NCBI RefSeq assembly: GCF_003367315.1
Contig: NZ_CP031415.1
Location: 3,160,001 to 3,224,000, forward strand
Direction: 5' to 3'
DNA: 64,000 bases
DNA from: Saccharospirillum mangrovi
Lineage (GTDB): Bacteria > Pseudomonadota > Gammaproteobacteria > Pseudomonadales > Natronospirillaceae
Positions 59,821 to 63,974 of this stretch are shown here, piece after piece. Below the pieces are notes generated by a model. The model was not told where the DNA came from. It was given only the letters and a program-made list of their open reading frames with translations, and ran no database searches. The position numbers were made by a program, and so were the translations under genes. Position 1 is the first letter of the stretch; the number at the start of each line of letters is the position of its first letter.

Positions 59821-60698
59821 TGGCGGTCAGCGTCGGCGCGGTCGACCGGCTCAGCTTCACGCTGTTTGTCGCCGTGGGCCTGCACGCCCTGGTGATTTTC
59901 GGCGTCGGCTTCGAGCCGCCCAAATCCGGCCAGTTACCGCCGACGCTCGACGTGACGCTGGCACAACACGCCAGCCCGACCACCACGCCACTCGACGAAG
60001 CCGATTTCCTCGCCGACGCCAACCAGCAAGGCAGCGGCACGCTGGAAGACAAAGCCCAATTGACCTCGACCGAACAAGCCGAGATCGAAGACAACCAGAT
60101 ATTCCGCACCGTGCCGGAAATACAGCAAATCCGCTTCGCCGAGCAATCGCCGCAACGCGCGTTGGTGACCACCACCGGCGACGCCGAACGCAGCGCTAAT
60201 GCGCAACCGAGCGAAGACGCCCTCACCGACCCGAGCCAGGCCAGCGACGAAGCGCTGCTGCTGAGCCAGGTCAACGACATCGCCACACTGCGCGCCATGC
60301 TCGATGAAAGCCGCCAGAATCTGGCACGCGCACCGCGCACCCGCACGCTGACGGCGGTGTCAGCGCGGCAATCGCTGGATGCGGCTTATGTGTATGGCTG
60401 GCTGGAAGAAATCGAACGCATTGGTAACCAGAACTATCCGCAGGCGGCGCGTCAGCAACGGCTGACCGGCGATGTGCGTTTGGCGGTCACCATTCGCTCC
60501 GACGGCACACTCGCCAACGTCGCCGTAACCCGCAGTTCCGGCCATGCCGTACTCGACCAGGCGGCGCAACGCATTGTGCATTTAGCTGCGCCGTTCGAAC
60601 CGTTCACGCTGGACATGCGCCAGGAATACGACCAGCTCGAAATCATCCGCACCTGGCAGTTCCGCACCGACAACCGCTTCGGCCGGGAGACGCCATGA
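59820..60698 (+). CDS. tonB: TonB-family energy transducer (TonB3 position)
   Basis: 292 residues. A single N-terminal membrane anchor (about residues 12-32, FTLFVAVGLHALVIFGVGF), a periplasmic middle part rich in Gln, Ala and acidic residues, a helix around residues 150-175, and the C-terminal TonB fold (about 190-292; NYPQAARQQRLTGDVRLAVTI, SGHAVLDQAAQRIVHLAAPFEPF). There is no long Pro-rich stretch. TonB couples the ExbBD proton force to outer-membrane receptors. Pseudomonas aeruginosa has tonB3 after gshB, reported to matter for twitching. It is flanked by coupled starts (1 bp upstream, 4 bp downstream). Confidence 0.9.
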   Translation: MAVSVGAVDRLSFTLFVAVGLHALVIFGVGFEPPKSGQLPPTLDVTLAQHASPTTTPLDEADFLADANQQGSGTLEDKAQLTSTEQAEIEDNQIFRTVPEIQQIRFAEQSPQRALVTTTGDAERSANAQPSEDALTDPSQASDEALLLSQVNDIATLRAMLDESRQNLARAPRTRTLTAVSARQSLDAAYVYGWLEEIERIGNQNYPQAARQQRLTGDVRLAVTIRSDGTLANVAVTRSSGHAVLDQAAQRIVHLAAPFEPFTLDMRQEYDQLEIIRTWQFRTDNRFGRETP

Positions 60699-61129
60699 GC
60701 GCCGACGGCCATTGGTTAGGCTTCGATTTCGGCCTGGCCTGGATCGGTGTCGCCGCCGGCCAACGCCTGACCCAGACCGCCAGCCCCTTGCCACCGCTGC
60801 GCGCCCGCGACGGCATTCCCAACTGGGACGCCATCGACGCCTTGGTGAACGAATGGAAACCGGCCGGTTTCGTCGTCGGCATCCCGTACAACATGGACGG
60901 CAGCGACAGCGAAATGGGCGCCCGCGCCAACAAATTCCGCAAGCGCCTGCACGGCCGTTACGGCTTACCGGCCGAAGCCATCGACGAACGTTTGTCGAGC
61001 CGCGAAGCGCGCAGCCAGTTGGGCGAACGCGGCAAAAGTTTGAGCAAGGCACGGCAGGCGCAGGTTGATAGCATCGCGGCCCAGTTGATTCTGGAAACCT
61101 TCCTGCTGCAAACCACGCCTCAGGCCTAG
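60695..61129 (+). CDS. ruvX: Putative pre-16S rRNA nuclease / RuvX (YqgF)
   Basis: 144-residue RNase H-like fold enzyme. Motifs: GFDFGLAWIGVAAGQ (first catalytic Asp), FVVGIPYNMDGSDSEMG, AIDERLSSREA (catalytic Asp-Glu) and QVDSIAAQLILETFL (last Asp). It processes the 5' end of 16S rRNA. Its ATG overlaps the tonB stop by 4 bp. In Pseudomonas yqgE lies between tonB3 and yqgF; it is missing here. The stop overlaps the convergent reductase stop. Confidence 0.94.
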   Translation: MSADGHWLGFDFGLAWIGVAAGQRLTQTASPLPPLRARDGIPNWDAIDALVNEWKPAGFVVGIPYNMDGSDSEMGARANKFRKRLHGRYGLPAEAIDERLSSREARSQLGERGKSLSKARQAQVDSIAAQLILETFLLQTTPQA

Positions 61130-62178
61130 CGGCCTTTGACCAGACCGTCCTGCAACAGTTGAGCGGCGTGGTCGTTCATCGTTTGCGCCAGCGAATGGTA
61201 TTGGATGCCCAGTTCATCACGGCTGGGTTGATTATCGAATTCCAGTGGGTAACCCATATTCCCGGCCACATCGCGACGCGACATGCCAATCAAGGGAGCC
61301 AGCAACCACAGCAGCCATTTGGGCAGTTCGCGGCTGGGTAATTTGTCGGCAATGTTGAAGCGTTCGCCGTCGAGGCAATGCGCCAGATCCAGCAAACGAA
61401 TCCCCTGGGCGACCAGAATATAGCGCTGCTGGTCTTTACCCTGTTCGGCGGCGCGCAGATGCGCCAGCGCTACATCACGCACATCGACCACACCCAGCCA
61501 CATTCTCGGCACGCCCTGACGAAAGCTGCCATCGACGAACTGCTGCATCATCTTCGCACTGGTGCCGTCGATGCGGCGCGACAGCGATGGGCCAAAGATG
61601 CCGCCCGGGTGCAGCGTCACCAGGCTCCAGCGTTGTTGTTGCCGCTGCCGTTGCCAGGCCAGTTGTTCCGCCTGGGTTTTGGAAAACGCGTAGGGATTGC
61701 TGTCGAGCCGGGAGCCGGTATTGACGTCAGCCGCCGTCACCAATGGGCTGCCCTTGGCATTCACCGAACGCGCCGTGTCGTACAGGCTGACCACACTGCT
61801 GGTCAACACCAGCCGGCGCACCGATTCACAGCGTTCGATACTGTCGATCACATTCGCCGTGCCGTTGAGCGCCGGGCGTAACAGGGTCTGTTCCGGGTTT
61901 TTGGTCTTTTCCAGAAAATAAGGTGAAGCGGTGTGGAAGACGATGGTGCATCCGGCCATCGCCGCATCAAAACTGCCCGGCGTCAGCAGATCAGCCTCGA
62001 ACAGAAACAACTGATCGGGGTATTGCGTTTTCATCTGTTCCAGATGTGCCAGCTTGGCCGAATCAGCCAGACTGCGAACGGTGCCATGCACGCGATAACC
62101 GGCGCGCAACAGGCTGTCCACAACCCAGGAACCGAGATAGCCTGAAGCACCACTGACCATGACTTGCTGTGTCATCAC
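61126..62178 (-). CDS. NAD(P)-dependent epimerase / dihydroflavonol-4-reductase-like enzyme
   Basis: 350 residues of the extended short-chain dehydrogenase group. The Rossmann motif is VMVSGASGYLGSWVVDSLL (about residues 7-25), with R near TVRSLADSAK suggesting NADP. CTIVFHTASPYFLEK lies at the active-site wall. The catalytic YxxxK occurs as NPYAFSKTQAEQ (Tyr about 173, Lys about 177). It resembles dihydroflavonol reductase and cinnamoyl-CoA reductase-like bacterial enzymes that reduce aldehydes or ketones; the substrate is unknown. Convergent with ruvX by a 4-bp overlap (CTAG). Confidence 0.88.
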   Translation of the reverse strand: MMTQQVMVSGASGYLGSWVVDSLLRAGYRVHGTVRSLADSAKLAHLEQMKTQYPDQLFLFEADLLTPGSFDAAMAGCTIVFHTASPYFLEKTKNPEQTLLRPALNGTANVIDSIERCESVRRLVLTSSVVSLYDTARSVNAKGSPLVTAADVNTGSRLDSNPYAFSKTQAEQLAWQRQRQQQRWSLVTLHPGGIFGPSLSRRIDGTSAKMMQQFVDGSFRQGVPRMWLGVVDVRDVALAHLRAAEQGKDQQRYILVAQGIRLLDLAHCLDGERFNIADKLPSRELPKWLLWLLAPLIGMSRRDVAGNMGYPLEFDNQPSRDELGIQYHSLAQTMNDHAAQLLQDGLVKGR

Positions 62179-62360
62179 TGAATTCCTCTTGACGCGGCGG
62201 ACCGCAAAAGTGGTGGTGACTAATATGATCGCGCCCGGCCCAGCTTAAATCCGCCAGAAGTCACAGCCGGCCATCGGCACCAGGCGCACTGGCAATGGGT
62301 TGTTTATCCGCCCCCACTTCCCCTAGCATTCGCTGCACCCACACGCCGAGGTAGCTGTTT

Positions 62361-63974
62361 ATTACCACCCAACCCGACCTGCCCACCGGCTACTACAAAG
62401 ACAATTTCGACCGTCTGCTCGCCACCGTCGTTGAACGCTACGACGATCTGCTGACGGATGCCGACCGCGCCTTTGTGACCGGCTATCAGCAACTCAGTTT
62501 GCCCGCCGCCCGTTTGCTGGTGCGGCTGTACACGCGCAAAGGCCCGACCTTCCGCCTTGGCAAACTCAACTACGCAGAAATCCCTGATCTCGCCGCGGCC
62601 GTCGCTGAATTAGCCGACATCAAGTTGCTCGACACCAACCCCGAACTCAGCGCCGGCGAAGTGGCGCAATTACTCACGCTCGCCGACTTACGCCAGCTTG
62701 ATTGGGTGCCAAATCCAAAACGCCCAAAAACCGAAATACAAACCGAATTGGACGACTGGGATGACATCCGCTGCGCCAGCGACTGGGGCCTGAACGAGCC
62801 ACTGATTCAACCGCAACACTGGCTGACATTGCGCCGGTTGCAACTGCTGTATTTCGGCAACGAACACCAAAGCCTGACCGACTTTGTACTGTCCGATTTG
62901 GGTCTATTTCAGTACGAAAATTATCCGCTCGGCAAAGCCAACCGCTGGTTCGAACATGGCGAAGAACTCGACCAGCATTTACTGATCGGCGAATTAAAAA
63001 GCGCCGTTTTTGAAGCGCGCGAAAACAGCGATGTCGAAGCGTTAATTGCACTCGCCGAACCGCTGTTGCAAACCGTCTGGATCGGCAGCGCCAAAGACCG
63101 CGCCGCACGGCTCGCCAACCGGCTCGGTTTCCGTCTGGAACAATGGGGCGAACCGGAACTGGCGTTGCAACTCTTTCAAACCAACGACCAACCACCAGCG
63201 CGCGAACGGCGTTGCCGCATTCATTTCAAAGCCGAACGTTTTGTCGCTGCGAACGAAGAACTCGACGCCATCCGTAGTGAACCCAAAGACGCCACCGAAG
63301 CGCGTTTTCTCACCCGCTTTGCACCCAAGCTGGCGAAGAAACTCAAGCTCGATATTGAACCGATAACCGTGCCGGTTTTGATCGAACAAACGCACTGCTG
63401 GCCGCAAGGCGACGGCAGCGTCGAACAGTTGGTGTGTTCGCGTTTAACCGATGCCTATTGGCTGGAAAATTTATTGCCACTCGGTGTATTCGGGTTGATT
63501 CACTGGCGCTGGATTTTCCAGCCGGTTGCCGGCGCGTTTCACCATCCGTTTCAGCAAGCGCCAGCCGACTTGTATGAACCGGATTTTCTCGCCCGACGCG
63601 GGCTCAGCCGCAGCCAGTTGTATCGCGAATTAAGCACCGAAACCGCACGCGAATATCTGCTGGAAAACTGGGATGCCAAGTTCGGTCGGCAGAATCCGTT
63701 CGTGCATTGGGGCGCGCTCGAAAAAGACTTGGTGTTGCGTGCTTTCGACGCCCTAGCCTGGGAACAGTGGCTGGCGATTTTCAAACATCTCTGGCTCGAC
63801 TTAAAACGCCACCGCGCCGGCTTCCCCGACCTGTTTCAGTTCACCGAAACCGGCGGCCGCTTTATCGAAGTCAAAGGCCCCGGCGACCGTTTGCAAGACA
63901 ACCAACGCGACTGGCTGGCGGTGTTCGAGCAAGCCGGTATCGCCGCCGAAGTCTGGTACATCCGTTATGAATAA
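62361..63974 (+). CDS. FAN1-type VRR-NUC nuclease
   Basis: Structure-specific nuclease of the FAN1 family, which cuts branched DNA near crosslinks. About 537 residues if translation begins at ATT 62361 (9 bases after GAGG at 62348-62351). The segment before the first common start codon (GTG 62475) contains the conserved family N-terminus PTGYYKDNFDRLLATVVERY, so the gene must begin upstream of it. The only in-frame candidates after the stop at 62352 are CTG 62355 and ATT 62361. Later parts: LVRLYTRKGPTFRLGKLNYAE (helical/HTH region) and the VRR-NUC domain at the end, with catalytic D490 in GFPDLF and E503/K505 in FIEVKGPGDRLQDNQ. TPR-like helices lie in the middle. Confidence 0.88.
   Translation: MTTQPDLPTGYYKDNFDRLLATVVERYDDLLTDADRAFVTGYQQLSLPAARLLVRLYTRKGPTFRLGKLNYAEIPDLAAAVAELADIKLLDTNPELSAGEVAQLLTLADLRQLDWVPNPKRPKTEIQTELDDWDDIRCASDWGLNEPLIQPQHWLTLRRLQLLYFGNEHQSLTDFVLSDLGLFQYENYPLGKANRWFEHGEELDQHLLIGELKSAVFEARENSDVEALIALAEPLLQTVWIGSAKDRAARLANRLGFRLEQWGEPELALQLFQTNDQPPARERRCRIHFKAERFVAANEELDAIRSEPKDATEARFLTRFAPKLAKKLKLDIEPITVPVLIEQTHCWPQGDGSVEQLVCSRLTDAYWLENLLPLGVFGLIHWRWIFQPVAGAFHHPFQQAPADLYEPDFLARRGLSRSQLYRELSTETAREYLLENWDAKFGRQNPFVHWGALEKDLVLRAFDALAWEQWLAIFKHLWLDLKRHRAGFPDLFQFTETGGRFIEVKGPGDRLQDNQRDWLAVFEQAGIAAEVWYIRYE

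Follow-up and report, generated by a model that had tools for sequence, protein, structure and literature searches.

An Apparent ATT Start in a FAN1-Type Nuclease Gene of Saccharospirillum mangrovi, Probably Following Loss of the Native Start

The FAN1 Gene and Its Surroundings

The window analyzed here is a stretch of 64,000 nucleotides from the genome of the marine bacterium Saccharospirillum mangrovi, and its last gene encodes a DNA-repair nuclease of the FAN1 type (Table 1; positions are those of the window, and residues of the protein are counted from ATT 62361). The reading frame is open from just past the TAG at 62352 to the stop at 63972, and no in-frame stop interrupts its 537 codons. 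The protein carries a Pfam VRR_NUC domain (PF08774) at its C-terminus (residues 428-532, E-value 2.2e-26, 92.6 bits for a cut-off of 23.8) and a FAN1_HTH domain (PF21315) near its N-terminus (residues 11-90, 7.5e-24, 83.9 bits for a cut-off of 27); a search against NCBIfam gave no match. Furthermore, it is collinear over residues 4-536, and hence over nearly its full length, with the solved FAN1 homolog 4r89 (E-value about 4e-70), and in this alignment the catalytic region is intact, FPDLFQF ... RFIEVKGPGD standing opposite LPDLIQF ... RMVEVKGPGD of 4r89; these segments we take to hold the PD-(D/E)XK-type catalytic residues. Judged by all the sequence characters checked (VRR-NUC, FAN1 HTH and catalytic motif), each of them present, this is a FAN1-type nuclease gene. 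The bacterial homologs of known structure (PDB 4r89/4r8a and 5y7g), those of Pseudomonas aeruginosa, resemble it in their near full-length match and in both domains, and the window gene is odd in comparison only in its start codon and in its upstream gene context. FAN1 orthologs occur in all six genomes of the genus that were compared, the window included.

Table 1. Features of the region from ruvX to FAN1 in the window
Feature	Position	Strand	Evidence
ruvX	60695..61129	+	PF03652, 7.6e-39; next gene upstream of FAN1 in five congeners
SDR (NAD-dependent epimerase/dehydratase-like) gene, separating ruvX from FAN1	61126..62178	-	PF01370, 8.8e-24; synteny
19-codon ATG frame, possible leader ORF	62295..62354	+	In the FAN1 frame, ends at TAG 62352-62354; weak Shine-Dalgarno, -2.5 kcal/mol
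Shine-Dalgarno GAGGT	62348..62352	+	Can pair with ACCTC in the 16S tail
In-frame TAG closing the FAN1 frame upstream	62352..62354	+	Sequence reading
CTG, rival initiation codon	62355..62357	+	2 nt between GAGGT and this codon
ATT, most likely initiation codon	62361..62363	+	Congener start positions; Shine-Dalgarno -7.2 kcal/mol, 8 nt spacing
FAN1-type nuclease gene	62361..63974	+	537 codons from ATT 62361; stop 63972-63974; last gene of the window
First in-frame GTG	62475..62477	+	Start here drops residues 1-38, 28 of them within the FAN1_HTH match

The Start Region

The TAG that closes the FAN1 frame upstream is followed by CTG, TTT and ATT, in this order, and no ATG, GTG or TTG is found in the frame between this stop and the GTG at 62475. 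An earlier note on this DNA, made from its letters alone, had held that only CTG 62355 and ATT 62361 remain after the TAG; the absence of an ordinary start stands, but the near-cognate codons are more numerous, since CTG also occurs at 62379, 62415, 62448 and 62451, where the Shine-Dalgarno pairing is no better than -0.9 kcal/mol. The GAGG at 62348-62351, which the note considered ideally placed for the ATT, belongs to a GAGGT that holds up well in this respect: its pairing energy was reached at 14 of 1500 random positions of the window and exceeds that found at the FAN1 starts of five congeners (0 to -6.1 kcal/mol). With the best pairing at an allowed spacing, CTG 62355 attains -5.3 kcal/mol as compared with -7.2 kcal/mol for the ATT, and GTG 62475 attains -3.3 kcal/mol at 11 nt. 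The 16S-type tail GGTTGGATCACCTCCTT, which includes ACCTCC, is present in three copies in the genome. It can also be read directly in the sequence, as the note had it, that the in-frame reading from ATG 62295 terminates at the same TAG; Shine-Dalgarno, stop codon and ATT all lie within 16 nt.

In the predicted fold of positions 62334-62400 (-10.9 kcal/mol), four of the five Shine-Dalgarno bases are paired with codons 6-10, which could offset the strength of the signal ahead of the ATT; this fold is not unusually stable (z -0.71, with 45 of 200 shuffles equally stable). No sigma-70-like promoter from which FAN1 might be transcribed was seen in 61050-62480, where 0.5 would be expected by chance. 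Nor was any Rfam element detected in 61000-62600 at an E-value of 0.1.

Conservation and Selection at the N-Terminus

The sister species, Saccharospirillum sp. MSK14-1 (L002), has a FAN1 protein 82% identical to that of the window. Between the two, the 35 codons of residues 4-38 show 7.5 synonymous and 2.5 nonsynonymous changes, i.e., a dN/dS of 0.09; over the same number of codons the values are 0.19, 0.66 and 0.35 against L003, L004 and L006, respectively, and L005 is saturated. For codons 4-537, dN/dS is 0.13 against L002, 0.19 against L003 and 0.22 against L004, both L005 and L006 being saturated. With the FAN1_HTH match opening at residue 11 and the alignment to 4r89 at residue 4, these figures agree with the earlier claim of a conserved N-terminal sequence ahead of the first GTG. 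Residues 4-38, conserved and reaching into FAN1_HTH, are on these grounds to be regarded as genuine protein, and initiation at GTG 62475 (residue 39) would cost 28 residues of a domain whose match begins well before it.

Counts of unique residues on the window and sister branches were 22 and 22, 19 and 17, 21 and 14, and 15 and 18 with four different outgroups, so the window branch shows no acceleration; equal branch rates would also be expected if the start had been lost very recently. Moreover, codons 4-26 are narrowly the most conserved 23-codon window at synonymous sites in the comparison with the sister (20 of 23, as against 242 of 399 elsewhere, p 0.013), with p values of 0.22, 0.045, 0.075 and 0.80 in four other pairs. 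As this stretch was picked after looking at the data, its conservation lends mild support to an initiation region close by. At the level of DNA, positions 62370-62429 are identical to the sister in 59 of 60 bases, though the whole gene is only about 80% identical.

FAN1 Starts in Relatives

All five congeners compared start FAN1 with ATG. Counted from their first ATG, the G of a conserved GYY is residue 11, 12, 12, 12 or 14, and counted from the ATT it is residue 10; the comparison of ortholog start regions that had been proposed in the earlier note thus places the congeners' starts close to the ATT. At its exact position L004 has GTG ACC and L006 has ATG ACT. CTG 62355, in turn, coincides with the first ATG of both (CTG. 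ATT facing ATG. GTG and ATG. ATG, respectively), which is the reason for counting it as a rival start.

A wider survey, in which any ATG, GTG or TTG lying past the upstream stop and ahead of a named residue was leniently accepted as a start, covered 103 FAN1 orthologs across the order: 27, among them the window (L028, being the second part of a single gene, is not counted), 60 more, and 16 from a search that matched 164 of 390 genomes, these 16 being among the matches listed, with weaker ones outside the count. A common start was missing before residue 12 in two of the 103 (the window and L081), among the matches listed. Read in the same way, one of 30 control ruvX genes (L160) had none before residue 9; ruvX was matched in 55 of 57 genomes, and the 30 with loci make up the control count. 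A special tendency of the FAN1 family to odd starts was considered and discarded, since two in 103 is no enrichment over one in 30. The ATT is seen in one of the six genomes of the genus and in none of the five congeners, and the one other ortholog of the 103 without a common start has different surroundings. Within the genus, as far as the compared sequences tell, the start of the window's FAN1 is a single-lineage change.

Two side observations come from this survey. In L081 (the same as L137:1465) a CTG overlaps the stop of the upstream frame as CTGA and may be a coupled CTG start. In L160, a genome in 250 contigs, ruvX has no ATG, GTG or TTG ahead of its conserved N-terminus, and a CTG stands there.

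Rearrangement Upstream of FAN1

The SDR gene, whose stop overlaps that of ruvX, is absent from the position between ruvX and FAN1 in all five congeners compared. The gap from the ruvX stop to the FAN1 ATG, as read from the sequences, is 4, 7, 5 and 7 nt in four of them; in the sister it measures 160 nt. The sister's DNA is similar to that of the window up to 61101, within ruvX, and again from 62370, which is FAN1 codon 4; with L031 the similarity ends at 61106 and returns at 62364, codon 2. Between these limits, positions 62179-62369 resemble the sister's gap no better than shuffled sequence does (109 of 200 shuffles score as high). In these comparisons, then, the window differs from the relatives in the DNA ahead of FAN1 codon 2-4, and this includes the native start.

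Among 24 genomes searched, the SDR gene has its nearest relative at 47% identity; the congeners' relatives are 40-42% identical and located in other places, and no relative was found in the sister at an E-value of 1e-20. A remnant of the gene in the sister's 160-nt gap was sought and rejected (matched in score by 163 of 200 shuffles). Repeats of a mobile element around the block, looked for in 60900-62500, gave nothing convincing, although a 17-nt inverted pair, 82% identical, flanks most of it.

The native start of FAN1 was probably lost with the rearrangement that put the SDR gene before it, and we infer a single event behind both the placement of this gene and the change of upstream DNA. 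The sister's gap, too, exceeds those of the other four congeners in length, so that more than one order of events may be envisaged.

Weighing the Explanations

The earlier note had offered a premature stop as an alternative, in which the TAG would truncate a longer protein begun at ATG 62295. This is disfavored by the same comparisons: the DNA that would encode the extension is unlike the sister's, and the congeners start later, near the conserved GYY. It had also offered a sequencing error, an idea that fares differently according to the type of error. A frameshift would not rescue the start, because no frame has a start that stays open to 62361 (in the two other frames no ATG, GTG or TTG follows TAG 62324 or TAA 62221 before that point) and any earlier shift into the FAN1 frame runs into TAG 62352; this argument applies to existing upstream starts and does not extend to a one-base change that creates a start codon. 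Since CTG 62355 and ATT 62361 are each a single base from a standard start, one assembly error or culture mutation at or beside them would suffice to mask a normal codon. We give this only a small chance, given that the genome is in one contig and rated 100% complete, that the neighboring genes are open frames with their domains, and that one-base errors are rare in assemblies of this type.

Were the loss of the start very recent, FAN1 might instead be a young pseudogene, its protein unmade or made only in truncated form from GTG 62475. The replaced start region, the lack of a recognizable promoter and a Shine-Dalgarno mostly paired in the predicted fold would all suit such a state, and the gene looks dispensable, since 30 of the 57 relatives searched have no FAN1 match. 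We nevertheless regard it as unlikely: 537 codons persist with neither an internal stop nor a relaxed rate, the catalytic region aligns intact with 4r89, and a strong Shine-Dalgarno precedes the ATT, while a truncated product would depend on the poor signal at GTG 62475 and would lack part of the HTH domain.

Two further possibilities concern the manner of initiation. Ribosomes that had translated the 19-codon ATG frame might restart at the ATT, 6 nt past the TAG, and so raise the yield of a weak codon; the crowding of Shine-Dalgarno, stop and ATT would favor such coupling, but the signal at ATG 62295 is weak and the sister has no detectable counterpart of the leader DNA, and we hold this to be highly improbable. 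Less credible still is initiation at CTG 62355, which has on its side the agreement with the first ATG of L004 and L006 and the CTG candidate of L081, the last two bases of which open the upstream frame's stop, but which GAGGT approaches to within 2 nt and which pairs less well than the ATT even at its best allowed spacing.

Initiation at the ATT

Protein conservation, the start positions of the congeners, and the strength and spacing of the Shine-Dalgarno together make ATT 62361 the best-supported start; it is most likely the best replacement for the native one, within a few codons of the place where the congeners begin. The reading that we favor, and consider rather probable, is that the native start was lost by replacement of the upstream DNA, and that FAN1 is most likely initiated at the ATT and yields a full-length protein under selection. 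In the relatives, FAN1 stands behind ruvX with an ATG start. In this lineage the two genes are separated by an SDR segment on the opposite strand, and the DNA before FAN1 codon 2-4 is a different one, with a GAGGT 8 nt ahead of an ATT sited where the congeners start. Ribosomes would most likely initiate there with fMet at AUU, presumably at reduced efficiency; the frame codes for a protein of full length and has been under selection. Any sensitivity to IF3 would then be a by-product of the AUU rather than an evolved circuit.

A bolder version, which we put forward only as a doubtful possibility, would have FAN1 kept in use over evolutionary time through the newly recruited AUU and its compensating Shine-Dalgarno, perhaps with reinitiation after the 19-codon leader, the level of nuclease being dependent on IF3. 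The earlier note had likewise suggested that an ATT start keeps expression low or autoregulated; as an evolved feature this is not supported by the sequences compared, because the non-canonical start is not conserved (one of six genomes in the genus; two of 103 orthologs compared with one of 30 ruvX genes), and it would have arisen where the upstream DNA was replaced and all five congeners have ATG.

Comparison With Known Non-Canonical Starts

Genes initiated at AUU or AUA offer a natural standard of comparison. The infC and pcnB genes of Escherichia coli are initiated at AUU (PMC9410913), and in Staphylococcus aureus cvfC1 starts at AUU and ccpN, citZ and infC at AUA, with a strong Shine-Dalgarno beside the starts of cvfC1, ccpN and infC (PMC13009471). 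In the latter study, the reporter output of cvfC1, ccpN and citZ in poor medium amounted to about 10% of that with AUG, and ccpN reached up to 30% in rich medium (PMC13009471). Judged from its sequence, the window's FAN1 fits this company, having no ATG, GTG or TTG that would keep the conserved N-terminus and a strong Shine-Dalgarno at proper spacing. It shares the AUU with E. coli infC and pcnB, its ATT being the most plausible start and well provided with a Shine-Dalgarno, and it shares with S. aureus cvfC1, ccpN and infC a non-canonical start beside a strong signal. It differs from E. coli infC, whose AUU serves the self-regulation of IF3, in that its ATT is confined to one species, and from cvfC1 and ccpN in that their starts are conserved in relatives. 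Conservation of the non-canonical start, by which a regulatory AUU or AUA would be recognized, was found in none of the five congeners. The window's FAN1 would be a new, lineage-specific case among the known AUU-started genes, and a literature search, not aimed at the start of the gene by name, returned no report of it.

If this is right, the gene provides a clean natural case of outliving the loss of a start codon by taking up an AUU and a strong Shine-Dalgarno, and annotation restricted to ATG, GTG and TTG would leave off 38 residues of FAN1 and so cut into a conserved domain; no new mechanism is opened by it. Two of the classical examples were also followed within the genus. In all six genomes pcnB (L053-L058) carries an ATG in frame and close to its start, where E. 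coli has AUU as the start. In infC (L047-L052), on the other hand, none of the six has an ATG, GTG or TTG after the upstream stop and ahead of the conserved IF3 part, and all six carry ATA AAA CGC AAC GCG after GGAG, so that AUA may be the start of infC in this genus, unlike the AUU of E. coli.
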